From a virus, in the IMG/VR virus record IMGVR_UViG_3300017613_001904, positions 1-34,745 of that record: DNA of 34,745 nt; one strand, 5' to 3'. The position numbers and the translations under genes were made by a program. This document shows positions 2-34,049 of this stretch, piece after piece; the stretch's first letter is position 1; the number at the start of each line of letters is the position of its first letter. The notes below the pieces were generated by a model that saw only the letters and a list, made by a program, of their open reading frames with translations, made no database searches and was not told where the DNA came from.

Positions 2-106
2 ACAGATTTTGATATAACAACAGAGGTAACTATTGAGGGTGACCCATATGAATATGATTTGTATTGGTCGCCAGCATTAAGAATGAATAGGAGATATGAA
101 GAATAA
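2..106 (+). CDS. 3' end of an upstream gene (partial)
   Basis: An open frame enters from the left edge and ends at the TAA at 104-106, giving 34 residues that finish in ALRMNRRYEE. The fragment is rich in Asp, Glu, Tyr and Trp, and is followed 12 bases later by the next start codon, with a shared AAGGAG ribosome binding site lying on the stop codon. That spacing says it is cotranscribed with the adhesin genes that follow. It is too short to assign a family; a structural (virion) protein is the contextual guess. Confidence 0.6.
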   Translation, partial: TDFDITTEVTIEGDPYEYDLYWSPALRMNRRYEE

Positions 107-13201: not shown

Positions 13202-13594
13202 ATGTTTGATTTAGAATGTGAAAAATGCGGTGGTTTGATGCAAATAGATGAGTATCTTACAGCTGAAGAATATAGTAAAGACATGGATTATTTAGTTGAT
13301 GAGGCGGGACATTTAGTAGAGTCCACCATTCAGAAATATTTAATTTATAAGTGCTTTGTGTGTGGTGCTGTTTATAGATTTACATATAAAGATTGGGAAG
13401 AGCTTATACGTATAAAAGTAGCTAAGAGGGCAATGAATATAAGAAAACAAAAAATGTTTGCAGAGGATATAAACCCGATGAGAATAGATCCGGACAATGG
13501 GCTTGAATATTGCGGACAGTGTGATGGGTATGATGGTGAGGGTAATTGTTTAGTAGATATAATAAAACAATGTACTATAAGGAAAGATAAATAA
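13202..13594 (+). CDS. Small zinc-ribbon protein
   Basis: This 130-residue protein has CxxC pairs at C6/C9 and C51/C54, the classic layout of a four-cysteine zinc ribbon split by a ~40-residue insertion. A second group at C104, C107, C116 and C124 includes CDGYDGEG (107-114). The middle is basic and helical (LIRIKVAKRAMNIRKQ). A perfect AGGAGG lies 5 bases before the ATG, and the stop codon overlaps the next ATG by one base (TAATG). Lying between two giant virion genes and sharing a motif with the upstream one, it may be a structural accessory or assembly factor. Zinc binding is predicted from Cys spacing, not shown. Confidence 0.6.
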   Translation: MFDLECEKCGGLMQIDEYLTAEEYSKDMDYLVDEAGHLVESTIQKYLIYKCFVCGAVYRFTYKDWEELIRIKVAKRAMNIRKQKMFAEDINPMRIDPDNGLEYCGQCDGYDGEGNCLVDIIKQCTIRKDK

Positions 13595-16500
13595 TGGCTT
13601 ACAATTTCTTGCGAGATGCAAGGTCTATAAAAAATTCAGCGCTTTGTAGATACGATACCTTAAATGGGTATGAAACTGACTTTAGCCAGAATGGGGACGT
13701 AGATGGTTGGGATATATACTATAATATCTATCTATATGGTTGTTGGAATGACGCTATTTTTGGCACCTCGTATGACAAGAGTTGTTATGTGAGCCGTACA
13801 AACGTGTTTCAGTATGTTAATGCAGAAGATTATTATTTTGTTAGGCTAATGATGAAGCTTACAGATAATAATACACATAAAACTGTTCCTACACTTACAA
13901 CAGGACGAATACAGTGGGTTACACTAAACGATCCAACGTGGAACTCTACACAGCAAATGGATTTTGATTTAATTGTAGATGGTAAATGGCATTTATATGA
14001 AATAAATATGGGCCCAGCAAAAGCTTGGCAGGGGTATGTAAGTAATCTTAGAGTTTATCCATTTATAGATGGGGCCGAGGGTGATCAGTTTGCTATTAAG
14101 TTTATAAAGATAAGCTCATATGATAAATGGATATGTAAAAACACGTCTTGTTCTTACTATAGTAGTTATGAGCACGATTGTCCTGGTGCCGGAAAAAGAG
14201 CTAGTGTAGAAGCGGGTACTACGAAATCGCATTATACAACTGTTTCAGGTATAAGCGATAAACTAGTTGTAAACATAGATAGTTACGGCGAAGAGGAGTT
14301 TGATTTAGGTAATAATAGTAATCTCAATGGCGTTGAGATGGCCCGAGTAATTAGCAACTCTTTGGGCCAGTTGAATGTCGGAGCTTATATTTTTTCACAG
14401 GTTGAATATTCTGAGAATGATGAGTTGAAAATAAGTTCTGGAAATGTGGGGTCTCAAAGTTCAGTAGTAATTTCTGACACACCAGCTGCTAGAGCACTAG
14501 GTTTTTTTGATGATGGTGGTAATAATATATCAACTATAGAAGTAGGTGTAAATTCAGCTACTGGATTTGATTATGCGGCATCACGTATATTTACTGGTAT
14601 AGAAATAAACAAAATGGTTGATGATAACGTCGATAATTTTGCTTACTTACACAACCCAGATCAGTTCAATGTAGAAGGGGGTCGTAGGGATTTTAATGAA
14701 ATAGGTACTTCAAGGTTAATTTCTAATTTAGTTAACACCCCTTATTATCAATCACTGAATAATAAAGGTAAAACTATAGTAGATTTATCCCACCCAATAA
14801 ATAATAATGGTAGACTAAAAGCTATCTATATATATGGACAAATAGAGGATGACAGTCCAGCTAAAATTAAAATTTGTCGACCACACAGAAACGGCGAATT
14901 AACAGTAATACACTCTTTAGATCTCCCTGTAAAAGAAGCTAATAAAGTATACACCACTTATCCATTATCTTACAAGATAGATTGTAATATTTTGGTTAGT
15001 AAAGGGGATTTGATGGGTGTTTATAACGCCAATCTTTATGTGGGTGTATCTATGACTGGATTGCCAGATGCTACTTTTTACCAAGTTATCGGTGATATTT
15101 CTGGTAGATTTGATCCTGGTAAACCTTACTCATTTGGGGTAGCTGGGCTGGCTATTTATGGACGCAGCGATCGTTATCAAACCAATAGTATATTAGATAT
15201 TGATATGGGTAACCGTATTAATATTGAACAAATAGATATTTATGGAGAAGAAGCTTCAGGGTATTATGATTTTAATTTGTGCTCTTGTTTAGATGTTAGT
15301 TGGGATGTTAACTTGTTTGGAGAATCACATATTCACCATGGAATTAGATGGACTGATGGAACTCCTTGGACTCATACCCATACAAATATAGCTTACGGTA
15401 AAGCTTGTTTAGATGATATGGTTATTACAGCAGACAACGGTAAAGAAGGTGATAGTTATTATGCTGATAATGGGCTAGCCACTGCTGGAGAGCACGCTTA
15501 TTTTTATGTGAATGGTGATGCTGAATGGTTATACGGCGGAACTTGTACTGGTAGAACCGAATATTGTTGGCCATATGTTCCTGATTTAACTTATGGTTTT
15601 GAGAGAGACCCAGTCCAATTTACTCTCTTGTTTCCTAATGAGCGGGCTGCTAAAGTTAATAGTAGTATAATGTATTTTAAGGAGAAAGATAATTTTAGAA
15701 AGTTTGAATTGTCATATTATTTGGGAGCAAGTGATTCTACAGGCAATACTTATGATAATAATTATAAATATATCCCTGCATATAACGAAGTAATACTGAA
15801 TGGCATGTCGTTTAACAGCACAAACAATGATTTTGTAGCGCCCTACTTGTTTCAAAATCCTACGAGCGATGATTCTATTTATTCTGGTGGCCAGATACAA
15901 AACCCAGAAGTTATACAAGCCGCATATACATTAGACTGGACTATATTAGAACATAGATTTGATGATATAGAATGTAGAGGATTTAGAATCAGAACTAATA
16001 AACATCGCAGCACAAAAATGATGGAAATAGAAGTATATAGCCGTGTACAAACTGACCCCTCTTTGATTGATAATACCACTTTATCCTTTTCTGATTATGG
16101 TGATGTATGGAAAAGTGCGTCATTTACTGAAATTTCAGACAACCAATTAAGTACATTTATTGGAGGAGCTCCTAGATATTTTAGATTAGAGTTTGAATCT
16201 AAAAACAAATTCAACTTGAATGAGATAAAAATGTCGGCGGGGAATCAAGTCAAATTGGAAGATTGTGATACTACATTACTATTAGAAGAATCTAAAACTA
16301 ATGCAACAAATACATCTACCCCGGCAGTGCTTGAAAATATATACGATAAGCCGTTTGATCTTATAGTAGATTTACCAAAAGAAACTCAGGAAACTAGTAA
16401 CATAATTTTTTGGAGTAAATGTGATTCTATGGATTCTATAGATAATCCAGAGATAGGGCCGGCCTGTTTTTTGCGTAAGGAAGATGGTTATAATATACAA

Positions 16501-19500
16501 AACGATAATGGGCAATGCGCGATAAATGTACCGGGATATGGATTGAAGAATTTAATAGATGGTAAAAATGGTTATTATAGTTATACTAATGGTGATTCAT
16601 GGACTCTTTCTGGTACATTATCAAGTGGGGTTTCATTAGATTTTTCATGTAAAAACCCAGGTTTATTGGAATCTACTTTGTCTTTTAGTGACATTAGTTC
16701 TAAATACTGGCAAATTGTTTCGAGTGTTGGTGGGCATATAACCTTAGATTCTTTGAGAGCGTTTTATAATGACAATGAATTGGATATTTATAATTTACAA
16801 AGTGCTTATAGAAACGGTAATTATATACCGATATTAGTAAATGACGTCATAGGGGCTCCTGTTCTTACTAACTGGACTGAATATCAATCTCAAGCTGGAG
16901 ACGATTTAGATCTTTCTTTCGACGGTATAGAAGCTGTTAGTTATGGGTCTGCTACTGGAGGTCCTTATATTAGAACTGTTTTATCTCCAGACCTTACGGA
17001 TTTTACTATGGCTTTTGATTTTATGTCATACAGAATAACATCTAATAGAATGGCGCATTTAGATGTAGATTTTTACGATAGTACCGATACACTTATAATG
17101 CACTGGCATCTTACAGACTCGTGGGTCGGCACAAATATTTTACAATTAATGGTGTATGAAAAAGGGGTTTTATTAGGTAATTATGCTGTTACTGGCATTA
17201 CTTATAATGATGGTGTACGTACTAACGAAGCTATTATACAAAGATCTGGTAGTAATTTATTGCTCAAAATAGATAACAATGTTATTTATAATGGTGTTTT
17301 TGCTACTGAGGCTATACATAAAGTAGACATAAGTTTACAGAGACAGTCTGGGTATACCCCAGCCGATAAATTATCTGTTTATTTTGGTAATTCATTTTGT
17401 TTTGATTTAAATACTTCTGAATCTATGAATATTTTAAGACTTAAACATATTGGTAATTTATCCGATGATGTTGATATTTATACAAGCGCTGATAATATAA
17501 CTTACACAAAATGGGATGACGCTAGTTTTGTATTACACAACTCTACTTTTTATGATTATTTTGCGATTGATTTGGAGAATAGGCATATATTGGATTTCAT
17601 AAGAAATTATGGTAATAGTGTTGGTAAGTTATTGCTAGACGGGAGCGTTTTAGACTATTCTAATACTGATACCTCTAATATAAATGATGTGGTGTGGAAT
17701 AGTACTGAAGATGATGCCAGGTGGGTAAGATTTAATTTATTATCTGGGGACGGTGTTGACAGGTATTTAAGAAAGCTAGGTATTTATCCTGATGTATCTG
17801 TTAATGCTTGTCTTGATGGTGATGCTTATAACTGTGAGTGGGAACCTATTGGTAATATATTATCTGAGTATACCCCTTCAATAAACGTTGCTTATGGTGC
17901 TACGGTAACCGGTACTAATAATTATTTTAGCGATTGGTATCCAATTTATGCTGTGGATGGTATATCTAACGACTATAGTATGGACGAATGCTGGGGGTTT
18001 CAAAAAGAAGGAACTACAGATCCATATTTAGAAATTGATTTGGGTCAATCTTACACCATTTATCAGGTTAAGTTGTATCATGGATATGATCCGGATGATA
18101 GTGATTATATGAACAAGAATTATACTATAAGTGTTTCTACTTCTACATCTGGTAGTTTTACAAATGTAGTAAGCGTAACAAATAATAGTGATTTTTATAG
18201 GATGCATCAATTTACTCCTGTTGAGGCTAGAAGAATAAGATTAACTGTTACAAGTTATGATTATGAAAGAATATATTATTATAATGAATCTACTGGTTTA
18301 TACGATGTTTTTGATGGTAGTTTTTTACGGGAAATGGAAGTTTATACATATCCTGGAATTAGTTATGTTGATAGCGAAACATGGCCAGTAGTTTGTATGA
18401 ATTTGTTAGAACCGTTTGGCGTAATAGATCATGAATTGGTAAACAAGGATATAAATGATACCACTACTGATTGGGATAATGATGAGGATTTTTTCAAATA
18501 TTCTGATAATTTATTAGAAGAGCCTAAAAAAGTGTCATTTAGTCAAGCAGGCCAATGGGCAACTGAATATGTTTCTACAGATGATTCTGGCAACATGTTG
18601 GGTGGATCAGAGTATATATTTGATATAAATCAATTTTTTACTGAAGGTAGATATAGAGTTTATTGGGATGCTTATGGCCCGTCTGAGGGAGAAATTAGTT
18701 TACGATTGGCTGGTAACCAAGTAGTTGATCTTTTTGCTGATAATCTTGGTAGCGGTTGGTTGGCCCAGGAGGGCGTGTTAGATGTGCCAGAGGATGGTTT
18801 CTACGATGTTAAAGGAATTCAACATATAGACCCAGATGTTGATTGGCGTGTCAGAAACCCATTAATGCAAAGAGCCCAAGGACACATCAAATGGGTAGCA
18901 GTAAAACGAGACACAGCTACTAATTATTCATACGATGATGATTCAGGTAAATACGGTTTGGATTATTTGAATTTGATAAAAGTATATGGAGATACTAAAT
19001 ACAATCCAACTGAATATCACTGGTGGTGGGATTCAGTTTTAAGTACTTTGTCCAATGATTATCTAAATGTAAAAGTACATAGTAGGTCTTTGCAAATAGA
19101 TTATCCGACTTCATCTGGAGTTGATACTATTTCATTTTTAGAGGGCGATGATTTTGGGCAAGATATATACTGGTCTGTAAAGGATGTGTTTAGTTTTTGG
19201 TGGAAAATTGATGACGTGTCCAAATTGGACACCACCTTTGGTGATATAACGTTTGGCAGCGTAAATGAGTCACCGCCGTTTTACTATAAGTGGAATATCA
19301 GTAGTTTGAATTTGACTAGTGGTTGGAATTTAGTTAAGCTTAAATTTGATGAATACGATGTTGTCTACCCCGAGACTGAAAATTTTTATATGAATCCATT
19401 TATGGATGAAAGTTTAGATTTAATAAATAATGAAAAAGATTTAAAGTCTTTTATATTACGTTATCGCGGTAAAGGATCGCCATTCACAATGTATGTGGAT

Positions 19501-20331
19501 GATATTCATATACAACGAAATGCTTTTGAGGATGATGTAAAATTCAGCAAAGGGCTGTGTTTAACTGGTAGAGAATATTTAGATATACCAGCTGCAGGAT
19601 TAACTTTAGAGCAAGGTGCTGTAGAATTCTGGTTAAAAACATATTATGATTCTTATGGACGGGACGCTTTTGGAAATCTTGCTTCGAAAACATTTTTCAC
19701 TCTTGTTAATAATAACAATGATATAGTTTCTTTGGGGATAAAAGCTGGTCAATGGTTTCAAGCTAGTACAGGTAATTTGAGAACCGATTTGAATTTATTT
19801 GACGCTGATTATGCTAATTTACGCGGTGATAGTTACGTAGATAGAGACGAGGTTGTGCATATAGCTTTAGCGTGGAGTAATGACGGCCAGTTTATGGATA
19901 ATAATCAGACATTAAGATTTTATATAAACGGGGAGTTGTTATATATCAGTACTGTACAGTGGGATGTTTCTGATACCAAGTCTGTAAATGTAAAATTCGG
20001 TGGAGCTAATACCCAAATGGCGTATGTCCAGGATACTTACGGAGCAGGTATTTTTGATAATATAAAGATTTATAACTATGCGAAAGATGATTTTAAAATG
20101 AATACAGAAGGGGTGGAAAGTGATATTATTTATACCCCAAACGAATTTCTTGAGGTTAGTAAAGATGATATTAATTTTCATGGAATAGGATCTTTAAGTT
20201 TACCATTTGTATTTGAACAAGTGCCTGTTGGTGATAGCAAAACCATATATGTTAGGTCGAACAAAAATGATAATTTTGTGCAGAGTAAAAAGACAGCAAG
20301 TTTAATAGTTAGCTGGTTGACAACGGTATAA
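13594..20331 (+). CDS. Giant fibre-like protein with discoidin and LamG domains (2245 aa)
   Basis: Domains in order: a short Cys group near 180-195; a VNID-type module at ~224-304 also found in the 5972-7531 product; a beta-sandwich region at ~390-540 with a GDLMGVYNANLYVGV segment; a His-rich patch (H579, H581, H582, H594, H596); two discoidin-like endings near 790-900 (RGFRIRTNKH, PRYFRLEFES); a concanavalin-like region at ~1120-1275; a clear F5/8 type C (discoidin) domain at ~1430-1586 (NVAYGATVTG, YLEIDLGQSYTIYQVKLY, RRIRLTV); and a LamG/concanavalin-like domain at ~1980-2166 (GAVEFWLKTYYD, DEVVHIALAWSND, LRFYINGELL). The C terminus (SKTIYVRS ... LIVSWL) resembles the end of the next protein. 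Such domains bind glycans, so a host-recognition fibre is the natural inference. The start overlaps the upstream stop by one base. Confidence 0.65.
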   Translation: MAYNFLRDARSIKNSALCRYDTLNGYETDFSQNGDVDGWDIYYNIYLYGCWNDAIFGTSYDKSCYVSRTNVFQYVNAEDYYFVRLMMKLTDNNTHKTVPTLTTGRIQWVTLNDPTWNSTQQMDFDLIVDGKWHLYEINMGPAKAWQGYVSNLRVYPFIDGAEGDQFAIKFIKISSYDKWICKNTSCSYYSSYEHDCPGAGKRASVEAGTTKSHYTTVSGISDKLVVNIDSYGEEEFDLGNNSNLNGVEMARVISNSLGQLNVGAYIFSQVEYSENDELKISSGNVGSQSSVVISDTPAARALGFFDDGGNNISTIEVGVNSATGFDYAASRIFTGIEINKMVDDNVDNFAYLHNPDQFNVEGGRRDFNEIGTSRLISNLVNTPYYQSLNNKGKTIVDLSHPINNNGRLKAIYIYGQIEDDSPAKIKICRPHRNGELTVIHSLDLPVKEANKVYTTYPLSYKIDCNILVSKGDLMGVYNANLYVGVSMTGLPDATFYQVIGDISGRFDPGKPYSFGVAGLAIYGRSDRYQTNSILDIDMGNRINIEQIDIYGEEASGYYDFNLCSCLDVSWDVNLFGESHIHHGIRWTDGTPWTHTHTNIAYGKACLDDMVITADNGKEGDSYYADNGLATAGEHAYFYVNGDAEWLYGGTCTGRTEYCWPYVPDLTYGFERDPVQFTLLFPNERAAKVNSSIMYFKEKDNFRKFELSYYLGASDSTGNTYDNNYKYIPAYNEVILNGMSFNSTNNDFVAPYLFQNPTSDDSIYSGGQIQNPEVIQAAYTLDWTILEHRFDDIECRGFRIRTNKHRSTKMMEIEVYSRVQTDPSLIDNTTLSFSDYGDVWKSASFTEISDNQLSTFIGGAPRYFRLEFESKNKFNLNEIKMSAGNQVKLEDCDTTLLLEESKTNATNTSTPAVLENIYDKPFDLIVDLPKETQETSNIIFWSKCDSMDSIDNPEIGPACFLRKEDGYNIQNDNGQCAINVPGYGLKNLIDGKNGYYSYTNGDSWTLSGTLSSGVSLDFSCKNPGLLESTLSFSDISSKYWQIVSSVGGHITLDSLRAFYNDNELDIYNLQSAYRNGNYIPILVNDVIGAPVLTNWTEYQSQAGDDLDLSFDGIEAVSYGSATGGPYIRTVLSPDLTDFTMAFDFMSYRITSNRMAHLDVDFYDSTDTLIMHWHLTDSWVGTNILQLMVYEKGVLLGNYAVTGITYNDGVRTNEAIIQRSGSNLLLKIDNNVIYNGVFATEAIHKVDISLQRQSGYTPADKLSVYFGNSFCFDLNTSESMNILRLKHIGNLSDDVDIYTSADNITYTKWDDASFVLHNSTFYDYFAIDLENRHILDFIRNYGNSVGKLLLDGSVLDYSNTDTSNINDVVWNSTEDDARWVRFNLLSGDGVDRYLRKLGIYPDVSVNACLDGDAYNCEWEPIGNILSEYTPSINVAYGATVTGTNNYFSDWYPIYAVDGISNDYSMDECWGFQKEGTTDPYLEIDLGQSYTIYQVKLYHGYDPDDSDYMNKNYTISVSTSTSGSFTNVVSVTNNSDFYRMHQFTPVEARRIRLTVTSYDYERIYYYNESTGLYDVFDGSFLREMEVYTYPGISYVDSETWPVVCMNLLEPFGVIDHELVNKDINDTTTDWDNDEDFFKYSDNLLEEPKKVSFSQAGQWATEYVSTDDSGNMLGGSEYIFDINQFFTEGRYRVYWDAYGPSEGEISLRLAGNQVVDLFADNLGSGWLAQEGVLDVPEDGFYDVKGIQHIDPDVDWRVRNPLMQRAQGHIKWVAVKRDTATNYSYDDDSGKYGLDYLNLIKVYGDTKYNPTEYHWWWDSVLSTLSNDYLNVKVHSRSLQIDYPTSSGVDTISFLEGDDFGQDIYWSVKDVFSFWWKIDDVSKLDTTFGDITFGSVNESPPFYYKWNISSLNLTSGWNLVKLKFDEYDVVYPETENFYMNPFMDESLDLINNEKDLKSFILRYRGKGSPFTMYVDDIHIQRNAFEDDVKFSKGLCLTGREYLDIPAAGLTLEQGAVEFWLKTYYDSYGRDAFGNLASKTFFTLVNNNNDIVSLGIKAGQWFQASTGNLRTDLNLFDADYANLRGDSYVDRDEVVHIALAWSNDGQFMDNNQTLRFYINGELLYISTVQWDVSDTKSVNVKFGGANTQMAYVQDTYGAGIFDNIKIYNYAKDDFKMNTEGVESDIIYTPNEFLEVSKDDINFHGIGSLSLPFVFEQVPVGDSKTIYVRSNKNDNFVQSKKTASLIVSWLTTV

Positions 20332-23300: not shown

Positions 23301-23511
23301 ACAATATCATCAAGTAGAATTAACTTTGCGTACTACTAACGCAGCATATACTCCCTATGTGAATAAATTATTAATGGCCCCGGCAGTAAAAATTGAAGAC
23401 ATACCATCTAAATCTTATAAAAATATGTATATTAAAACTGATATACCAAATGGAGCAGATATAGCAGACCATGAAGCAAGGCTAAAAACATGGTGGAGAG
23501 TGGAGGAATAA
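20344..23511 (+). CDS. Two-propeller fibre protein with kelch repeats
   Basis: This protein has 1055 residues. The N terminus (MQYNLIRNSYF) resembles that of the preceding giant (MAYNFLRDARS). It is followed by a discoidin-like region to ~residue 140 (LETDLSQRIKVDGVRLY, FMRVTVSGISVELYEF). Residues ~256-570 contain kelch-like blades (AMAYDSVNEVIYALGC, SISYDTDRDYVYSIAG, VSRYDVSTNTWTT). Residues ~632-932 form a second propeller with ~40-residue blades of the form DGVWYT...VYHLDxxG, including GCWVVDN and DGFWYFN. The last ~65 residues (KSYKNMYIKTDIPNG ... LKTWWRVEE) look like a terminal beta module shared with the previous gene. GGGGAG precedes the ATG. Propellers of this kind are ligand-binding platforms in secreted and virion proteins. 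No catalytic residues can be named. Host-surface recognition is inferred. Confidence 0.6.
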   Translation: MQYNLIRNSYFRSLTTSGTGNVSLTWPQLESLMDQNTISSGVTLTTSGILYLETDLSQRIKVDGVRLYASDLSKSSNINFYYKNTESDSYTLLTTQSGTSYYYTTITTPSAPQFMRVTVSGISVELYEFLIYNDDYIVAFGEDGQTYAESLDNAPIGEEGDSQAIAIYNNDTSAIPATGYTAIDYTGTDADNYIKISASENGTYRGIEDGVMVEDNYLSSNYIWDMGDYVDNTTVENNKLILIDTDTSSALDKLGDLPLTDGSESLNVGESAMAYDSVNEVIYALGCEASPTILKLYKYDIPTNNWTYLWEVNPGVTGFENTAGICYLDGYVYIMCNYSSYTFGRYDMVTMSGVWESLATLSGAVPTATSTAFSMDSDGVDCVYLASADGLGAPGTTTFQKYNTVSGTWGVLDDGFGRFLYGGTGNYPFTVSISYDTDRDYVYSIAGEYNETYGYVSRYDVSTNTWTTDYLNRATLGGNPFKSCIAYYGDYIVLYGYGYTPTAYLYHIPSDSSRSINVGSPTIHADGPHTNNASNKSFMCAINPRKSNDTMSIIFGCVLGYEDELYGYNMTPVYESTGTYISPIFKVDDAYSSSYFIVDATTTSGFTSVSYDAGSYNGTIRVRSGIEPTPINEVYWYVGIGSFLEVYKYNLYNFDGGNWITTADATSALKTISTAADRRTGHVATSYSRNVPTGKGAYSRSEVIIYNRDATELYSNFINAGSNNPPYERYGFDVNMEFDKFGGIWGYNGDRAFYLLHFDYQLVSELASIYDGGTDFLYDFAVELDGDGVWYTNKSLGVVYHLDAVGTELQQITLQTPRAICGTSDNGCWVVDNTDYYARRYDSSANIVKSVYLGRTASRMCTDYNDGFWYFNSSTSNVYHLNSVGTVLSTTGVANVSRLRGLNDGCIVWSSSNDFVKHINSNGSITHTFNGPSSTTSLPGAFAHNHTDHLNYHTDFLPISYDPVWGTGGSASWKEVSKDGYFLPKEQYHQVELTLRTTNAAYTPYVNKLLMAPAVKIEDIPSKSYKNMYIKTDIPNGADIADHEARLKTWWRVEE
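23502..23506 (+). promoter_or_regulatory. Ribosome binding site that fixes the start of the SPRY-LamG gene
   Basis: GGAGG at 23502-23506 sits 7 bases before the ATG at 23514. An in-frame ATG also exists at 23490, but it lies inside the preceding gene with no Shine-Dalgarno sequence, so the downstream start is preferred. The site is embedded in the final codons of the preceding gene. Confidence 0.7.
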
Positions 23512-23513
23512 TC

Positions 23514-25412
23514 ATGACTGATTATGTATGGCATGATGAAAATTATGACCAAAGAATACAACTTACTATAGATGGAACTAAAATAGACGGGGATATGACG
23601 GATTTTCCTGTTTTAATTCATTTATCTGATGCCTCTGGAATAACAAATGTTGATGTTACTGATGTGTTTGATGAGCTTACGTCCAGTGGAGTATTATATG
23701 ATAATACGTGGAATGAAAATGATAAAGCCGCTGGAATATCGTTGTCAAATGGTGATTTAACAGCTACAATGGTTAGTAGTGCATGGGATGCTGTGAGAAG
23801 TATATTAGCTAGAAGCTCTGGTAAATGGTATTGGGAAGTTAAGCTAGATGTAGTTGGTGATACTAATAATATGATTGGTATTGGCACGTTTTTAGAAACA
23901 TTAACGTATCCTGGTGATACTACAGAAGGTTATGGTTATTATGGGGCTAATGGAAATGCATACAACAATACTGCTAGTTCGTACGGTAATAGTTATACAA
24001 CTAATGATATAATAAGTGTAGCTCTTGATTTAGATAATGGTAAAATTTGGTGGGCTAAAAACGGTACTTGGCAAGGAAGTCCAGCTGGTGTTCCAGCTTC
24101 TGGTACTAACCCAGCTTATACTGATGTAATTGGCAAGTTTTATGCTATGGTAGGTTTTAACGCTAGTGGAAATAAAGCTACAGCTAATTTTGGGGCATCT
24201 GCTTTTACTTATACTCCTCCAACAGGTTTTCAAGCTGGTTTTTCCTCTGATATAACTAATGATAAAAAAATTGCAGTTTATACAACATCTGGAACTCAGG
24301 ATGTACAATGTTATACAGAAATAGAAAAATGGGTTACTACTTCCGGCAGCGAACAAGCTTGGTTATGGGTAAAAGTGCCTACCCTTTCCTCCGGCACGGA
24401 CGCCGTTATTTATTTATATTATGATAAAGATGTGTCTGATAATACTAGTTATATAGGTGATACGGGTGACTATGCTGCTAAACAAGTTTGGGATAATAAT
24501 TTTGTAGGCGTCTGGCACATGGCTCAAGATCCTTTTGGATCAGATGTATTAGATTCAACCTCGTATACTAACGACGGATCACCAAACGGATCTATGACTC
24601 CTATTGATTTAGTAGGTGCTAAAATAGGGGATGGTATAGATTTCGATGGATCAAACGATTATTTAGATTGTGGTAAAGACGCTGAGCTTGATATTACAGA
24701 AGCTATAACATTGGAAGCTGTGTTTAAATATACAACAGGTGGTAACTATAGACGTATGATAGCTAAGCAGTATGGGGCTGCTGGTACTAATAATGCTTGT
24801 TATCAGCTAGGTATTATGAATAATAACAAGCTTAGATTTTCAATTCCCCCAACTTTTGATTTGTATAATTATGGAAATACCCTTAATGATGGTAACTATC
24901 ATTATGGTGTTGGTATTTATGATAGCGGTGCTTCCGATATGGTGATGTTATTAGATAATTCTATAATACATACGTCATCTAGCTATTCTACTGCTATTAG
25001 ATCTAATTCTGATAAATTACTTGAGATAGCTGACGAAGAAGGCTCATCCTCATATAACTATAACGATGTAATAGATGAGGTTAGAATTTCAAATATAGCT
25101 CGTTCAGAGACTTGGATACACCTTACATATTATACTAGTTGGGACGAACTAATAACGTTTGGGGCAAAGGAAGACAAGCCTTCCTTTATTTTTAATGGGT
25201 ATGTACAAGTTCTGGGGAGTCCGGTAGCCAGGGAAGTATACCTATACCATAGAAGTACAGGAGAATTGGTGGGATCTGCAATCTCAAGCCCTTCAACAGG
25301 GTATTTTGAAATTCCTACACCATTTAATGATTATCATTTTGTTAATATTCTTCCGGGATTATCCGAGGATTACAATATTTTAGTTGAAGACAAGATAAAG
25401 TACGGGAGCTAA
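23514..25412 (+). CDS. DUF2341-LamG adhesin with an inserted SPRY domain
   Basis: This 632-residue protein begins with a DUF2341 half (QRIQLTIDGTKIDG, DFPVLIHLSDASG, VFDEL). Residues ~63-242 are a SPRY domain (GKWYWEVKLD, GIGTF, GYGYYGANGN, ISVALDLDNGKIWWAKNGTW) that interrupts DUF2341. DUF2341 resumes at ~243-332 (KKIAVYTTSG, QAWLWVKVPTLSSG, YLYYD) and leads into a LamG jellyroll at ~333-550 (GVWHMAQD, GDGIDFDGSNDYLDCG, IDEVRISNIARS). The C-terminal ~75 residues look like a carboxypeptidase-regulatory/transthyretin-like module (GYVQVLGSPVAREVYLYHRS). The gene at 26421-28202 is a paralogue without SPRY but with a different guest domain elsewhere. DUF2341, LamG and SPRY are known binding folds in surface and phage proteins. 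A virion adhesin is inferred; the ligand is unknown. Confidence 0.75.
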   Translation: MTDYVWHDENYDQRIQLTIDGTKIDGDMTDFPVLIHLSDASGITNVDVTDVFDELTSSGVLYDNTWNENDKAAGISLSNGDLTATMVSSAWDAVRSILARSSGKWYWEVKLDVVGDTNNMIGIGTFLETLTYPGDTTEGYGYYGANGNAYNNTASSYGNSYTTNDIISVALDLDNGKIWWAKNGTWQGSPAGVPASGTNPAYTDVIGKFYAMVGFNASGNKATANFGASAFTYTPPTGFQAGFSSDITNDKKIAVYTTSGTQDVQCYTEIEKWVTTSGSEQAWLWVKVPTLSSGTDAVIYLYYDKDVSDNTSYIGDTGDYAAKQVWDNNFVGVWHMAQDPFGSDVLDSTSYTNDGSPNGSMTPIDLVGAKIGDGIDFDGSNDYLDCGKDAELDITEAITLEAVFKYTTGGNYRRMIAKQYGAAGTNNACYQLGIMNNNKLRFSIPPTFDLYNYGNTLNDGNYHYGVGIYDSGASDMVMLLDNSIIHTSSSYSTAIRSNSDKLLEIADEEGSSSYNYNDVIDEVRISNIARSETWIHLTYYTSWDELITFGAKEDKPSFIFNGYVQVLGSPVAREVYLYHRSTGELVGSAISSPSTGYFEIPTPFNDYHFVNILPGLSEDYNILVEDKIKYGS

Positions 25413-25415
25413 TTA

Positions 25416-26408
25416 ATGACTATACCAACCGTTAGTGGCGGTATATTTAATTTTACGACTGGTGGATATTCTTCACCGGGTTTTAGCGGATCTACATATG
25501 GGTTTGGTACGGTTGAAACATTCTACCAAGTTTGGACGGATGATTATGTGTACGCTGCTACTTCACTCGGGTTAAATATCTATGACATTACATCTGAAAG
25601 TCAATACGCTTACGTAACTTATAGTGGCGGATTCAATACAGTATGGGCAAATGAGGACAAAGTTTTTGTTGGAACAACTAATAGTGGGGTTAAGTATATA
25701 AATAAAACATGTATTAGTGGAAGTGTTGTAAGCCCTTATGATTTATTTACTTGTCTAAACGATTTTAGTGATTTGACTTATTATCACCAATTGACTTCAG
25801 ATAATATAAGATATATCCATGGTAGTGGAGACGTTTTGTGTATGATAACTAATTCTGGAGTTGATATAGTTAAGATAGACCCGCAAAGTTATAGAAGTTA
25901 TACAACAATTAGTGGGGTAAGGAAAGGATTTATGACCTCGACGGGTGGATTTTATTATATGACATTGGATGTTTTATATGTTATGTATACTTCTTTATAT
26001 GATTGGACTGAAGCAAATAAGAACTATACAGTTGGCAGCGGAATTTTTGAGTCGGGAATAGAACTTAACGACATTTTTGTGACGGAACAGACCTCATCTG
26101 ATGGTATTTCAAATACTATATTCATGGCTACCACTAGTGGTGCTTATATAATAGATGAGGGAACAGAAAATTACATCAATTTTACTAGAGCTTCTGGTGT
26201 GCATGGCGGCTCAGATGCTTTCACAGCTATATGGGCTGACACAGATGCGGGATTGTCGGCGAATAAAATGTATATAGGATTAGAGGGTTACTTTAACGTA
26301 GTTAATCTAAGTGACCAAACAATTTATGATTGGTATAGTACTAGTCATAAAGGAAGGTCAAACGAGGTATTATCAGGAAGTGGTATAGTAGATATAAATG
26401 TAACTTAA
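25416..26408 (+). CDS. Beta-propeller virion protein
   Basis: This 330-residue protein starts 3 bases after the previous stop, with GGGAG upstream of the ATG. It opens with FNFTTGGYSSP (residues 11-21) and YGFGT (28-32), a short strand motif shared with the protein at 28213 (FRFTSSGYTMP). It then shows propeller-like blades: YVYAATSLGLNIYDI, KVFVGTTNSGVKYI, VLCMITNSGVDIV, IFMATTSGAYIID and KMYIGLEGYFNVV. Each has a [VI]-[FLY]-x-x-T-[TN]-SG-[VA] core, a pattern known from two-component-regulator-like propellers. The Ser-Gly dipeptide is very frequent (14 by hand count). There is no signal peptide. It sits between two DUF2341-LamG paralogues, so it is probably part of the same fibre or baseplate adhesin set. 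Confidence 0.65.
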   Translation: MTIPTVSGGIFNFTTGGYSSPGFSGSTYGFGTVETFYQVWTDDYVYAATSLGLNIYDITSESQYAYVTYSGGFNTVWANEDKVFVGTTNSGVKYINKTCISGSVVSPYDLFTCLNDFSDLTYYHQLTSDNIRYIHGSGDVLCMITNSGVDIVKIDPQSYRSYTTISGVRKGFMTSTGGFYYMTLDVLYVMYTSLYDWTEANKNYTVGSGIFESGIELNDIFVTEQTSSDGISNTIFMATTSGAYIIDEGTENYINFTRASGVHGGSDAFTAIWADTDAGLSANKMYIGLEGYFNVVNLSDQTIYDWYSTSHKGRSNEVLSGSGIVDINVT

Positions 26409-26420
26409 GGGAGAATATAG

Positions 26421-28202
26421 ATGGGGTTAGCTGGCTGGAATAGTGATAATAAACTAAAGTTAACGATTGATGCTAGTAAAATTGATAGTACTTTACTCCA
26501 AGGTAACAGTGTTGATAAGACACAATGCACCGCTTCATCACAATATAGTTCGAGCTATATACCGGATGAAGCGTGGGATGGAATTGCAGATGGGTCAACA
26601 GCTAATTCTTGGCTTAATAATGGTGGTACAAATCCACATAATCCTGATGGAAGTTGTTATATACAATGGAACTTTGGAGTTGGGAGAGAAATTACTTGGA
26701 TGCGTTTCCACACAAGGGGAGATGGTGGTAATGATGCGTGGCCAAGTAATATTAAAATTTTGGGATCTAATACCGGATCATTTTCTGGTGAAGAAACAAC
26801 TTTGTATGATGATGATGTTCCTGGAGCTTCTGGTATGAGTCCTGATGAGTGGTCGGTTTGGATGCAGTTTACTGCCCATGGTTATTATCAGTATTTAAGA
26901 ATGGAAATTCATGAAAGATATGTTTATCAAGCTGGCGGTACTTGGTTTGCTATACAGGAAGTTGAATTTATGTATGAATTGTCGAATTTTCCAGTACTTA
27001 TATCTCTATCATCTAGTAGTGGCCAAACAAATTATGACACTACTGGCGTGTTTGATGAGTTAGCTACGATTTCTGGAAGTTATGATAATAGGAAAAAAAT
27101 TGCGGTAACAACAACAGTATCCGGTGTAGAAACTGAGTTGTTTGTTGAAATAGAACGCTGGGATGATACTACTGCTTCCGGTAATGAACAAGCTTGGTTA
27201 TGGACTAAAGTTCCAACAGTATCTTCTGGGATAGATACAGAGTTATATTTATATTATGATTCTAACCATACCACCAATTCTGGATATATAGGTGATACTG
27301 GAGAAACGCCGGCTCAAAATGTTTGGGATAGTAATTTTAATGCTGTTTTCCATTTTTCTGAGGATTCATATACAGGAGCTGCTTCTGAAATAAAAAATTC
27401 TACTATTAGTGGTATACATGGGCATGCTATAAGCAGTGCTCAGCCTTCCAGTGCTTTGATAGGTAATGGTTTAGATGTAGATGATGTTAATAAAGGAGCG
27501 ATTGCAGAAAGTACTATTAATCCTGGTAATGTTTATACTGCGGAATCTTTTTTCTTAAAGCCGTGGAGCTCAGCAGGTGTTAATGCCATGTTTAAATCTA
27601 CTAGCCCAAATCAATATATGATTTTAATAGACACGGATAATTTATTAGCTGTTTATGATGGTGCATGGCGTAAAAGTAGTTATAATTTAAACACTATTAG
27701 TAATGGGTGGCACTACTTAGTTGCTGTTTCTGATGATACTAATACTTATTTTTATGTTGACGGTGGGTATGTTGATAGTGTGGCTTACCATTGTACTGGT
27801 GGTTTTGATAATTTTGGCGGTACTGCCACTCAATCTTGGGGCGATATAGATGAGGTTAGGGTTTCTGATGTTCAGCGTTCAGCAGCTTGGATTAAGGCTA
27901 CGTATTATAGTAATTTCGATGATTTAATTACTTTTTCTCCGACGATTAGTTATATACATTATTTTTCAGGAACCGTATATGAATTAGGGAGTACTGTTAG
28001 TGGTGCTCAAATTTTTATGTATAAAAGAGATACGGGTGAGTATTTAGGATCTACTACTTCGAGTGGTGATGGTGGTTTTTACATCACGACTTCTTATAGT
28101 GGATCTCATTTTTTGGCTTGTTTGGATCCAGAGGGCGGACAAAGTTACAATGACCTTATATATGGAGAAATGTATCCAATTACTATTACTATATCTGGTT
28201 AA
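26421..28202 (+). CDS. DUF2341-LamG adhesin with an inserted discoidin domain
   Basis: This 593-residue protein is a paralogue of the 23514-25412 product. DUF2341 starts at LKLTIDASKIDSTL and is interrupted at residue ~27 by a discoidin/F5-8C-like domain running to ~186 (QCTASSQYSS, EAWDGIADGS, YIQWNFGVGREITWMRFH, YYQYLRMEIHE, FAIQEVEFMYE). DUF2341 then resumes (NFPVLISLSSSSG, GVFDELATISG, KKIAVTTT, QAWLWTKVPTVSSG) and passes into a LamG region at ~304-503 (NVWDSNFNAVFHFSED, DIDEVRVSDVQRS). The last ~80 residues match the carboxypeptidase-regulatory-like end of the paralogue (GTVYELGSTVSGAQIFMYKRD). AGGGAGA precedes the ATG. Discoidin domains bind carbohydrate or lipid in known families; binding by this copy is inference. 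Confidence 0.75.
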   Translation: MGLAGWNSDNKLKLTIDASKIDSTLLQGNSVDKTQCTASSQYSSSYIPDEAWDGIADGSTANSWLNNGGTNPHNPDGSCYIQWNFGVGREITWMRFHTRGDGGNDAWPSNIKILGSNTGSFSGEETTLYDDDVPGASGMSPDEWSVWMQFTAHGYYQYLRMEIHERYVYQAGGTWFAIQEVEFMYELSNFPVLISLSSSSGQTNYDTTGVFDELATISGSYDNRKKIAVTTTVSGVETELFVEIERWDDTTASGNEQAWLWTKVPTVSSGIDTELYLYYDSNHTTNSGYIGDTGETPAQNVWDSNFNAVFHFSEDSYTGAASEIKNSTISGIHGHAISSAQPSSALIGNGLDVDDVNKGAIAESTINPGNVYTAESFFLKPWSSAGVNAMFKSTSPNQYMILIDTDNLLAVYDGAWRKSSYNLNTISNGWHYLVAVSDDTNTYFYVDGGYVDSVAYHCTGGFDNFGGTATQSWGDIDEVRVSDVQRSAAWIKATYYSNFDDLITFSPTISYIHYFSGTVYELGSTVSGAQIFMYKRDTGEYLGSTTSSGDGGFYITTSYSGSHFLACLDPEGGQSYNDLIYGEMYPITITISG

Positions 28203-28212
28203 GGAGAACTAA

Positions 28213-30180
28213 GTGGCTTATACTAAACCACCAGCGAATAATATGCCGTTTAGGTTTACTTCCAGTGGGTATACTATGCCTAACGCTGGTAGTATGAGAT
28301 TCCAATTTGGGGCTGCTGCTACTGCGAATCTACAAGCCGCTATTAACGTTCTTTCTGAAGATTACTTGAAAGAATGTCCTACCTATACAATATCTTACGG
28401 TGGTAAGATACAAACTATTCAACTTCCTTGTGTTTATGGTGGTTATAGACATTTAGGTGGTTATATTTATGGTAATCCCGAACATGCGGATTTAGGTGCG
28501 TATATTAAGGTTGTGATGGGCCAAGCCGAATTAGGCGCATATATTAAATCTACTATTCAGTCGTCCAAGAATTTAGGGGCCTCGGTGTATGGAATTCCTC
28601 CAGCCGATTTAAATGCTTATCTAAATATTATTGAGATTAGAAATTTACCAGCATATGTTTATGGTGTTCCACCCGTTGATTTACCGGCTCATTTAAACGG
28701 TTGGGCTGTTAAAAATCTATCTGCTTATGTATATGGTTACTATCCAATTGATTTAAATGCTTATATTTATGGTATTCCACCTGCCAATTTAACAGCTTAT
28801 ATACGTGCTTGGAGTATAACAGATCTTGCCGGTGAAATTAATTCAGTTTATAAAACAGATTTACCGGCTATTATACAGTCTACTACTCTAGCTGATTTAG
28901 CAGCTTATTTGTCTGCTGTTGATCCGATAAATTTTCCTGCCAGTATCCATGGATGGGCTACCGCAGATTTACCAGCTACATTAATAGGTGGTTATGGGCC
29001 TAATGATCTTCAAGCTTACATAGAAGCTTCAGGCGGGTACAAAGATTTATTAGCCTATGTCAAAGGTATGATAGAGACTGAAGTACCTTATGATTTACAA
29101 GGAATTATAGAAGGTTGGTATAGTTTTAATCTTGGTGCGTCCATATCCTTGATTTACCCAGCAGATTTGAGTGCTTACATATTTGCTACTGGAAAAACAG
29201 TTGATTTGCCTGCATCAATAATACCGAGAGTTATATATTTAAAACAAGCTATTAGGGTTGCGTTACTAGAGCACTTAGATCTGGGTGCTATGATTAACTC
29301 TTCCTGCTTTGCTTCGGGGTCAATAAATTTAAGTGCTTACGTATATCCAATTATGAAACATGATTTGAGAGCTGTTATTTTTGGTTGGAATGTAAATATT
29401 TATTCACACGTAGTGGAGCTTGCTGCTTGTATTAATACTGGGGTTGTAAACGTAGAAGATAAGATACCTGTTAGTTTTGTTCCCCAACCGCTAAAATATA
29501 CCATACTACGGCTTAAATTAGATGTTAATCCATCATATAAAGTCTTTGATACTCTTAGGATATTGTTTAGTAGTTATCCGGAGGCTAATTTACCAGCAAC
29601 TCTTACAGGTGTACTAGAATCATCAAACTTACCAGCTTATATAAAGGCCGTATTTGATTGGAATTACAGCGAACTTCCGCCATATGTAAACCCAAAAACC
29701 CACGAAGTAGTAATTGATTTTGATGAGGATGGTTATGAAAATTGGAGAAGGTTTGTAGAAATTTTCTTTGATTTTACAGGCGATTCGCCTTATCATTATT
29801 TTTATGTTAGTGGCGCAGATAAGGTTTACAGGGTGGATAGAGATAGACATTGGGTTGTGCGAGCTAAATCATATAAGCGAGTTTCTGGTATGATAGAGCG
29901 TAGAAATGTAAGGCGTAAATACATATTTAATATGTCAAATTACGCAAACGTGGACGAGGCTGTAAGAGATTTGATCGATAGGGTTTCAACGTATAGAAGG
30001 TCTAGTTTAGGAGCTTATATAAATGGTGGATTACCTATACATGCAAATTTAGGTGCATCAATTTACCCAGATGTAAAATATTCGTGGGTTAAATACTTAC
30101 ATGCTTCTGTTGTTGGTCGTTTAAGAGGATATCAAGGTACTGAAAGTTTAGATTTGTCAGCATCAATTACTGGTATATAA
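28213..30180 (+). CDS. Dodecapeptide-repeat virion protein (655 aa)
   Basis: The start is GTG, preceded by AAGGAG and followed by GCTTA as in other starts here (1429, 2648, 13594). After an opening strand motif (FRFTSSGYTMP, residues 13-23), the protein is dominated by a 12-residue repeat, [DN]-L-x-A-[YS]-[IV]-x-G-x4. Unit starts at residues 120, 132, 144 and so on to 252 are exactly 12 apart. Looser copies occur before this (81, 93, 106) and after (265, 278, 294, 306, 318, 331 and onward to 460-490). A different, charged region at ~495-595 (WRRFVEIFFDFTGD, YRVDRDRHWVVRAKSY, MIERRNVRRKYIF) interrupts the array, and the last ~60 residues return to LGAYI/LGASI repeats. Such strict periodicity suggests a beta-solenoid or stacked-strand fibre. 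The repeat family is not one I recognise. It is the last gene of the structural block. Confidence 0.65.
   Translation: MAYTKPPANNMPFRFTSSGYTMPNAGSMRFQFGAAATANLQAAINVLSEDYLKECPTYTISYGGKIQTIQLPCVYGGYRHLGGYIYGNPEHADLGAYIKVVMGQAELGAYIKSTIQSSKNLGASVYGIPPADLNAYLNIIEIRNLPAYVYGVPPVDLPAHLNGWAVKNLSAYVYGYYPIDLNAYIYGIPPANLTAYIRAWSITDLAGEINSVYKTDLPAIIQSTTLADLAAYLSAVDPINFPASIHGWATADLPATLIGGYGPNDLQAYIEASGGYKDLLAYVKGMIETEVPYDLQGIIEGWYSFNLGASISLIYPADLSAYIFATGKTVDLPASIIPRVIYLKQAIRVALLEHLDLGAMINSSCFASGSINLSAYVYPIMKHDLRAVIFGWNVNIYSHVVELAACINTGVVNVEDKIPVSFVPQPLKYTILRLKLDVNPSYKVFDTLRILFSSYPEANLPATLTGVLESSNLPAYIKAVFDWNYSELPPYVNPKTHEVVIDFDEDGYENWRRFVEIFFDFTGDSPYHYFYVSGADKVYRVDRDRHWVVRAKSYKRVSGMIERRNVRRKYIFNMSNYANVDEAVRDLIDRVSTYRRSSLGAYINGGLPIHANLGASIYPDVKYSWVKYLHASVVGRLRGYQGTESLDLSASITGI
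28570..29004 (+). repeat. Core of 12 in-phase dodecapeptide-coding units (36-bp period)
   Basis: This segment encodes twelve units that each begin with N/D-L (N-F once) at exact 36-base steps; only the last unit is 13 residues long. Early units alternate between an NLxAYVYGxPP type and a DLxAxLN type, hinting at a 24-residue super-period. Codons vary between units, so the repeat is conserved at protein level rather than as recent DNA duplication. Confidence 0.75.
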
Positions 30181-32685: not shown

Positions 32686-33715
32686 AAAGAAGGCAAAGGC
32701 AGAGCCTAAGGCGAAAAGTGCTCTGGAATTACAGAAACAGGCGGTTATTAAAAAGTATGGGGAAGGAGTTGTTAGTTACTTAGGAGATCACGAAGATTTA
32801 CAGATAGACGCTGTCTCTACTGGGTGCTTGTCACTTGATTCTGCGTTAGGTATTGGTGGTTTTGCAAGGGGAAGAGCTTATGAGATTTATGGACCCAACA
32901 GTAGTGGTAAATCTACTCTTGCATTGAGTCTGTGTATGCAGGCGTTGATGCGGGGTTTGGAAGTAGCCTACATCGATGCTGAACACTCACTTGACCCCAA
33001 ACTTGTTAGAAATATGGGCGCAGAAGTCAATGTAGACCCCGATAGAATGTGTTTGATACAGGCATTTACTGGTGACGATAATCTGGAAATCGCAGAAAAA
33101 CTAATGAAAACCAACGAATTAGATGTTTGTGTTGTAGACAGTGTCTCGTCTCTTCTACCAAAAAGTATGGCGGAGGGCGAGATTAGTGATAACTATATAG
33201 GATTATTAGCCCGCCTTATGAGTAAAGCATGTCTGAAACTCATACCGGTAGTTAATCGCACGAATACACTTCTTATATTTATCAATCAGATAAGACACAA
33301 TATTGGAAAATGGGGAGACGATAGAACTCCTACGGGTGGAGAAGCCCTAGCTTTTTATGCAACTGGTCGTATTAAAGTAGAGGGCGGTGAATCTAAAACT
33401 TCTCGAATAATAGGAGACGAGGGTTTACCTATAGGACATGAGAGTAGTTTTCAAGTAGTTAAGAATAAACTTGCTGCCCCTTGGAGATCAGCCAAAATTA
33501 ATCTTATTTATGGTCGAGGATATGATTTTGTTAGTGAAGTGGTTACTCTCGCTGTTGATTTTGGATTGATAGAACAATCCGGTGCGTGGTATAAATATGA
33601 AGAAGAGAAGTTTAATGGTAAAGGAAATTTAGTAAATATGTTCAGAGAAAACACTGAAATGTATGATGGATTAAGGGGTAGAGTAAAAGATATGTTGGGA
33701 TTGTCAGATGAGTAA
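32678..33715 (+). CDS. recA: RecA recombinase
   Basis: RecA-family strand-exchange ATPase of 345 residues (E. coli RecA 353). Walker A is GPNSSGKST at 72-80. The catalytic Glu is E102 in YIDAEHSLDP, and Walker B is VCVVDSV with D154. Loop L2 and the ATP-sensing Gln lie in FINQIRHNIG through TPTGGEALAFYATGRI (~201-231). The C-terminal domain keeps VVKNKLAAPWRSAKINLIYG and LIEQSGAWYKY. The sequence is closer to bacterial RecA than to T4 UvsX in these motifs. A Lys-rich N terminus (MAKKKAKAEPKAK) and a short tail (MLGLSDE) replace the long acidic C terminus of E. coli RecA. It catalyses homologous pairing during recombination-dependent replication or repair. GGAGG precedes the ATG inside the preceding gene; the nuclease gene overlaps its end by 8 bases. 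Confidence 0.93.
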   Translation: MAKKKAKAEPKAKSALELQKQAVIKKYGEGVVSYLGDHEDLQIDAVSTGCLSLDSALGIGGFARGRAYEIYGPNSSGKSTLALSLCMQALMRGLEVAYIDAEHSLDPKLVRNMGAEVNVDPDRMCLIQAFTGDDNLEIAEKLMKTNELDVCVVDSVSSLLPKSMAEGEISDNYIGLLARLMSKACLKLIPVVNRTNTLLIFINQIRHNIGKWGDDRTPTGGEALAFYATGRIKVEGGESKTSRIIGDEGLPIGHESSFQVVKNKLAAPWRSAKINLIYGRGYDFVSEVVTLAVDFGLIEQSGAWYKYEEEKFNGKGNLVNMFRENTEMYDGLRGRVKDMLGLSDE

Positions 33716-34049
33716 ACTTGCAGATGAGACATATGCTTTTTTGAGAAAAACATTTCCTCATAATATCATAACGAGAGAATATTATGTGAAGTATGGCAAC
33801 ACAAGGCTGTTTTTTGATTTTTATATCAAGGATTTGGGTGTGTTAATAGAGGTGCAAGGACGTCAGCACGATGAGTTCGTCAAGCACTTTCATAATGATA
33901 GAGAAACTTTTTTCGCGTCTAAGAAAAGAGACAATTTGAAGAAAGAGTATTGCGAAAAGAGGGGCTTTGTGTTATTAGAAATAAGAAGTGCCAAAGAATT
34001 GGATAGGGAAAAATTTATAGAACGAGCACGTAAGGAAATAACATCATGA
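33708..34049 (+). CDS. Small PD-(D/E)XK-like nuclease
   Basis: This 113-residue protein has RLFFDFYIKDLGVLIEVQGRQ in outline, placing D37 and E48-V-Q50 as the likely metal-binding acidic residues, with the QGRQH signature typical of small Vsr/DUF559-like nucleases. A following K-KRDNLKKEYCEKRG helix and FVLLEIR strand complete the fold pattern. The usual Lys of (D/E)xK is Gln here, a variation known in this superfamily. The start overlaps the recA stop by 8 bases (ATGAGTAA) and its stop overlaps the next ATG (ATGA). Encoded beside recA, it may process recombination intermediates or nick DNA. A homing-type or mismatch-repair role is an alternative. No catalytic activity can be proved from sequence alone. 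Confidence 0.65.
   Translation: MSKLADETYAFLRKTFPHNIITREYYVKYGNTRLFFDFYIKDLGVLIEVQGRQHDEFVKHFHNDRETFFASKKRDNLKKEYCEKRGFVLLEIRSAKELDREKFIERARKEITS

Follow-up and report, generated by a model that had tools for sequence, protein, structure and literature searches.

How a virus comes to possess two related proteins, each interrupted by a different domain, and what such an arrangement could serve, are the questions raised by a stretch of viral DNA of 34,745 bases (IMG/VR virus record IMGVR_UViG_3300017613_001904, positions 1-34,745), hereafter called the window. Two paralogous genes in it, P0001 and P0002, are both intact open reading frames (ORFs) with one gene, P0004, in between, and outside their guest segments both products consist of a DUF2341-like core, a LamG jelly roll and a small C-terminal domain. 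An earlier note on this DNA had claimed that a SPRY domain splits the core after VFDEL in P0001 and a discoidin domain splits it after KIDSTL in P0002, and had seen in this the modular insertion of ligand-binding domains into loops of one scaffold.

One scaffold split at two different places

Comparison of the two proteins by BLASTP gives three blocks: P0001 residues 18-36 against P0002 residues 7-25; residues 35-72, with FPVLI and VFDEL, against 186-223 (55% identity, 38 residues); and residues 249-632 against 215-580 (33% identity, E-value 9e-47). The breaks leave one extra segment in each protein, about residues 67-255 in P0001, coming after VFDELTSS, and residues 25-186 in P0002, between KIDST and LSNFPVLI. 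Both splits described in the earlier note are recovered, each as an alignment break together with a Pfam domain (SPRY and F5/8 type C, respectively); VFDEL is uninterrupted in P0002, and the host flanks align across the junctions, as had also been stated. The whole-protein scores for DUF2341 (PF10102), 17.6 bits for P0001 and 19.3 for P0002, fall below the cut-off of 23.4, and for this reason the scaffold is named DUF2341-like; the unsplit syntenic homologues considered below exceed that cut-off with 26.6 and 30.7 bits. The C-terminal part of this chassis matches Laminin_G_3 (PF13385, cut-off 27.6) in P0002 with 30.7 bits, and in P0001, where Pfam gave no match to this part, a LamG-type fold is indicated by a structure match. 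No solved fold was found for the DUF2341 core, whose sequence profile gave no matches against PDB; this is an absence of match, not evidence of a new fold.

The SPRY of P0001 (PF00622) is detected with an E-value of 1.5e-13 in the whole protein and with 54.5 bits, against a cut-off of 26.3, when the guest is scanned alone. In the AlphaFold2 model, built from an input alignment of 31 related rows and having a mean predicted local distance difference test score (pLDDT) of 81.5, residues 71-253 match the SPRY of Ash2L (Z-score 23.4, root-mean-square deviation 2.0, 169 aligned residues) and residues 335-549 match domain 4 of the arabinanase AbnA (Z-score 20.4); the structure-match rows cover the SPRY and LamG parts, and the scaffold strands flanking the guest on both sides are mostly of high confidence. 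According to this model, the SPRY of P0001 is a separately folding domain nested in the scaffold.

The guest of P0002, scanned alone, scores 31.9 bits with F5_F8_type_C (PF00754, cut-off 28.2), the whole protein scoring 27.2. Its sequence had no match in PDB up to an E-value of 5, and no other ORF among those collected matched it at an E-value of 1 or better. In the P0002 model the scaffold is well predicted and the guest lies mostly below a pLDDT of 60, because the alignment had no relatives of its discoidin. The check named in the earlier note, whether structure prediction makes the guests integral to the DUF2341 fold, came out in favour of a separate domain for the SPRY of P0001; for the P0002 guest, with its low-confidence model, separateness rests on the Pfam match and on homologues without the guest. 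Fold matches of P0002 to clostridial neurotoxin receptor-binding domains and to sialidases (7-16% identity, with the aligned stretch mainly in the LamG jelly roll) were read as a shared common fold only.

The scaffold with and without guests in other viruses

Homologues of the large conserved neighbour P0006 were found in a further three records of large viruses, G001 (150 kb), G006 (119.5 kb) and G003 (92 kb), with identities of 53-54% over the full length in the first and 34-42% in parts in the other two, and the related records preserve the order P0006, P0003, scaffold genes, P0005, replication genes. In syntenic positions of these records the same scaffold is present with other guests or with none, which the earlier note had proposed to look for in related phages. 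The homologues of P0002 in G001 and G006 are full scaffolds with nothing between KIDEDL/KVDEDL and DFP; an extra scaffold gene of G001 carries one pair of LamG domains behind VFDEL and another pair in the hairpin that follows. In G003 (46424-59385, minus strand, L233/L234) five consecutive scaffold genes lie between the P0003 and P0005 homologues, loaded at S3 and S6, at S3 with an empty second copy, with a discoidin, with a beta-propeller-like domain at S6, and at S3 (for the sites S1-S7 see Table 1). The place of P0001 in G001 is taken by a protein of 265 residues made of a SPRY and the C-terminal domain, without DUF2341 or LamG; its SPRY shares 44% identity with the P0001 guest along 185 residues and has the top score among 72 SPRY stretches found for that guest. 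SPRY domains related to this guest were also seen strung like beads behind an empty scaffold within a single protein (L187, with two of them; L112/L187) and, in L175, just after a scaffold ORF at the same locus.

These relatives bear on two other explanations. The poor model of the P0002 guest would agree with guest segments being elaborations of the DUF2341 fold rather than separate domains; however, 169 residues of the SPRY segment align with free SPRY structures, SPRY exists as a scaffold-free protein in G001, and empty copies form a complete scaffold with neither guest, so that we regard this explanation as very improbable and, for P0001, largely refuted. Nor is it credible, except at the very margin, that chimeric contigs or frame errors have fused unrelated genes: the records are nearly all metagenome-derived and the window is known from one assembly, but open frames span both junctions in both genes, three related records have their genes in the conserved order, and a given filled site is met again in separate records (the L102 and L140 guests are 93.6% identical; L194 and L197 cluster at at least 95% host identity).

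A wider census drew on viral contig scans, genome contig scans and one cultured virus (Methanoculleus virus L4768/Blf4, the sole cultured carrier among those collected, whose gp33 has no guest), two of the locus scans giving the best 80 of 219 and the best 80 of 103 relatives. Copies were aligned to a profile of 165 scaffold positions, which allows long internal inserts and derives in part from the very copies being scored; those under 60 bits were excluded, and redundancy was set at 95% scaffold identity. The resulting 125 copies (118 non-redundant, in 100 ORFs) fall into 96 without a long insert and 22 with one or two, counted among the 118, and these carry 25 guests of 145-435 residues at seven sites. 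The six copies on contigs of bacterial or archaeal metagenome-assembled genomes (L119 twice, L120-L123) are all without a long insert. Together with the separate SPRY and the empty syntenic P0002 sites, the census upholds modular insertion into loops of one scaffold. Left out of the 118 were a divergent discoidin-bearing copy (L178, 45 bits), a filled S3 copy of the same virus, and the SPRY that L012 carries together with LamG, flanked by scaffold pieces that joined only at a relaxed penalty. Four tandem scaffold copies were observed in single ORFs of L105, L138 and L184, with no long guest there in the census.

One site may hold several families, as SPRY (a single guest), LamG and DDFTG-type guests all occur after VFDEL, at S3, and one family may occupy several sites: discoidin S1 (P0002) and S6 (L195; 27.7 bits, slightly below the cut-off), LamG S3 and S4 (both in L159), S3 (L110) and S5 (L176), and the related beta-propeller-like guests S2 (L102, L140), S7 (L103, L183) and S6 (L178; Glyco_hydro_130, 31.1 bits). 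The six DDFTG-type guests, of about 200 residues and all at S3, match no family above its cut-off, the L218 guest (S6) is DUF6923-like below the cut-off, and six guests are without a family; altogether 7 of the 25 exceed a curated cut-off.

The short scaffold segments beside guests, those of the window proteins included, outscored each of 300 reversed ORFs in 24 of 24 cases; the N-terminal piece of P0002, 20 residues long, reached 23.6 bits against a null maximum of 15.2. The weakest calls of the census are three S7 guests, resting on 16-17 downstream scaffold positions (28.0, 21.6 and 23.8 bits against 15.1, 14.3 and 13.9), and L103, resting on 25 positions (19.7 bits against 16.3). With the secondary structure of the P0001 model as reference, 21 of 25 junctions lie between scaffold elements and four interrupt a strand or helix (in three cases where the VFDEL helix ends, in one a hairpin), against 40% expected (P about 0.01), related copies being treated as independent in this as in the tree statistics. 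No target-site duplication was evident by eye in four junction stretches.

In a tree of 116 scaffold copies, the seven rows filled at S3 only need six changes, three of them forced by well-supported branches; therefore, guest loading happened several times. The window copies group with those of G001 and G006 in five rows (two empty, one doubly loaded, P0001 and P0002), with a support of 87/85, below the star threshold. The opposite history, in which guests are ancestral and empty scaffolds have lost them, draws on the scaffold-free SPRY at the P0001 position of G001, which makes the history of that gene ambiguous. It is nevertheless quite improbable as a general account, since S1 is filled only in P0002 among 114 copies with a complete N-terminus, the two syntenic P0002 homologues are empty with clean junctions, and the filled copies, the S3-only rows included, are scattered on the tree.

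Proposed function and genomic surroundings

We consider it probable that P0001 and P0002 are paralogous virion adhesion proteins, whose swappable loop guests bind the host surface and whose adhesion is altered by guest exchange. Most likely they would be tail-tip or fibre proteins of a large tailed virus with lectin-type domains grafted into their loops, because in G001 a tape-measure gene lies upstream on the same strand and because the Blf4 scaffold gene, which adjoins a putative tail protein, is among structural ORFs (ORFs 12-34 are called structural by the authors in the cited passages of PMC8540584). The tail-distal gene position points to a virion location, the family names of the guests suggest ligand binding, and an effect of their exchange on host range would be expected by analogy with the evolved Dit.

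The chassis should, on this proposal of adhesion, be a small DUF2341-like beta scaffold followed by the LamG jelly roll and the C-terminal domain, and its inter-strand loops would tolerate whole compact domains. SPRY, discoidin, LamG and propeller domains have termini close together, which would let them sit in a loop with the host fold undisturbed. The SPRY of P0001 would occupy the loop after the VFDEL helix and the discoidin of P0002 the loop between the first two strands; projecting from the chassis, the guests would most likely bind a host-surface glycan or protein, and their gain, loss or exchange would change what the virus adheres to. More tentatively, and somewhat short of probable, the DUF2341/LamG chassis may be a general docking platform, a beta scaffold of about 165 residues with seven interchangeable loop ports, which diverse tailed viruses load repeatedly and independently with lectins, propellers and SPRY, sometimes two at once, keeping arrays of differently loaded copies for combinatorial surface recognition.

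Several points weigh against the adhesion proposal. The model of the P0002 guest is of the low confidence noted above. The tail assignment rests on gene order and the tape-measure match; in the profile search of the three related records, Baseplate_J and sheath were found in none. The profile phrog_2, which we take to be of the terminase type, was matched in one of the three. For 12 of the 25 guests (six DDFTG-type and six others) there is no good named-family match, and lectin-type binding is not suggested by name. Finally, P0001 and its counterpart in G001 may reflect either SPRY insertion or scaffold loss in the relative. The guests might instead be structural decoration or spacers (serving length, stability or oligomer contacts) with no role in host recognition: they vary freely, 96 of the 118 copies do without them, and four are LamG domains of the same type as the chassis domain. 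We find this unlikely, as the identified guest families are mostly binding-associated by general knowledge (SPRY, discoidin, LamG) and the analogous carbohydrate-binding module (CBM) insertions in Dit promote adsorption (PMC10688798).

As to the surroundings (Table 1), the start of P0001 is the second in-frame ATG of the ORF 23490-25412, which encodes 640 residues from its first ATG; the latter (23490) overlaps the upstream gene, whose end is at 23511. Large neighbouring proteins of the window bear LamG, discoidin and Ig-like domains (Pfam). P0004 has two partial homologues in G001 (87959-88768 and 90033-90371), and in G003 (56395-59385) a scaffold protein apparently ends in a fused P0004 part. 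P0005 contains many DLxAYI/NLGAYI-type units, and neither Pfam nor PHROG gave a match to it. The motif T-x-S-G occurs 48 times in the 14 structural ORFs up to 30180 (window 119-30180), where shuffled proteins give 6.3 (at most 15 in 1000 shuffles); the replication ORFs of the window have none. The motif stands at residues 64, 265 and 283 of P0001 and 216, 232, 251, 285, 328, 525, 546 and 590 of P0002, often in scaffold loops, is frequent too in L145, L159, L224 and L178, and is possibly a modification or linker motif. HNH/homing-endonuclease-like ORFs inside or beside the tail module (window 33708-34049; L236:6164-8092 in G001) are a possible driver of exchange.

Table 1. Features of the window and its relative G001, and guest sites of the scaffold
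Feature	Position	Strand	Basis or content
P0006, conserved large neighbour, 2245 residues, synteny marker	13594..20331	+	homologues in G001, G006, G003
P0001, DUF2341-like/LamG protein with nested SPRY	23514..25412	+	frame open from 23490; BLASTP, Pfam, structure model
P0001 scaffold segment 1 (profile positions 4-53, ends VFDELTSS)	23538..23687	+	76.1 bits against null maximum 20.3
P0001 guest at S3, SPRY, 189 residues	23688..24254	+	Pfam SPRY; Ash2L SPRY structure match
P0001 scaffold segment 2 (profile positions 54-165, NDKKIAV...AWLWVKVP...)	24255..24596	+	census profile
P0001 LamG-like jelly roll, residues 335-549	24492..25136	+	match to AbnA domain 4
P0001 C-terminal small domain, residues 568-636	25191..25397	+	common to P0002 and the free SPRY protein of the relative
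P0004, gene between the paralogues, 330 residues, synteny marker	25416..26408	+	homologues 58% in G001, 46% in G006
P0002, DUF2341-like/LamG paralogue with nested discoidin, 593 residues	26421..28202	+	BLASTP, Pfam, model
P0002 scaffold segment 1 (profile positions 3-22, ends KIDST)	26427..26492	+	census profile; 20-residue piece above null
P0002 guest at S1, F5/8 type C (discoidin), 162 residues	26493..26978	+	Pfam; missing from syntenic homologues
P0002 scaffold segment 2 (profile positions 23-164, LSNFPVLI...VFDEL...KKIAV...), unbroken at VFDEL	26979..27437	+	BLASTP, census
P0002 LamG-like jelly roll, residues 305-497	27333..27911	+	Laminin_G_3; structure match, Z-score 14.9
P0002 C-terminal small domain, phrog_21337-like, CarboxypepD_reg-like	27963..28136	+	weak matches
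P0005, downstream synteny marker, repeated LGAYI/LPAYI-type units	28213..30180	+	44% homologue in G001
Scaffold-free SPRY protein of G001	L229:10150-10947 (G001 87149-87946)		position of P0001
Site S1	profile position 22		1 guest, P0002
Site S2	profile positions 37-40		3 guests
Site S3	profile positions 50-57		10 guests, including P0001
Site S4	profile position 63		1 guest
Site S5	profile position 82		1 guest
Site S6	profile positions 119-125		5 guests
Site S7	profile positions 139-148		4 guests

Comparison with known systems

Phage binding proteins are best known for exchange of terminal domains; in contrast, the fold of a compact scaffold is retained here although entire domains have entered seven or more of its loops. 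Among its relatives are versions with no guest, with one and with two, and some of the empty ones are syntenic homologues. With such material one can test directly what rules natural domain insertion follows as to loops, guests and linkers, and the scaffold may point to likely seats of recognition modules in uncultured viruses. As a whole, the system resembles a natural means by which viruses could sample new surface-binding parts. Among the matches listed from the open-access literature, none had DUF2341 in its title or abstract, and none of those listed for domain insertion or shuffling, receptor-binding, evolved Dit and SPRY-phage tail was a paper on this scaffold.

The presence of lectin domains on the fibres of phages is already known, and so is domain mosaicism (PMC7824862; PMC10684548, in the passages cited here). 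The same families (discoidin, LamG3, SPRY) are described in virion-associated proteins of large phages in the part of PMC7824862 dealing with fibre lectins of jumbo phages; there the subject is domain presence, whereas here the domains are nested in loops of one scaffold. Domain shuffling around shared parts of tail proteins is likewise known from the mosaicism of phage receptor-binding proteins, presented in the cited part of PMC10684548 in terms of shared and unshared domains, unlike the splitting of one domain by another at defined loops. As to DUF2341 itself, the scaffold core matches the family, but the split copies of the window stay below its cut-off.

The closest parallel is the evolved, CBM-bearing Dit. 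According to the portions of PMC10688798 and PMC6669499 cited here, carbohydrate-binding domains inserted in skunavirus Dits promote adsorption to exopolysaccharide (EPS)-producing lactococci, and skunaviruses given an evolved Dit were fully infective on such hosts (the latter from PMC10688798). No Dit family was among the Pfam and PHROG matches of P0001 and P0002, and the evolved Dit serves as a working analogy, without a claim of membership, as the scaffold differs. The trait common to both is a whole binding-type domain inside a scaffold that also occurs without an insert; in the cited portions of the same two papers, the evolved Dit and the CBM insertions in major tail and neck proteins likewise combine a conserved virion scaffold with an internal binding domain, the classical versions having no insert. 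In the evolved Dit the insertion is linked to adsorption; the present scaffold is a putative virion protein. Unlike the evolved Dit, the scaffold described here is DUF2341-like/LamG; seven or more of its sites are used, the guests fall into five or more classes, SPRY and beta-propeller-like domains among them, and it is carried by uncultured viruses.

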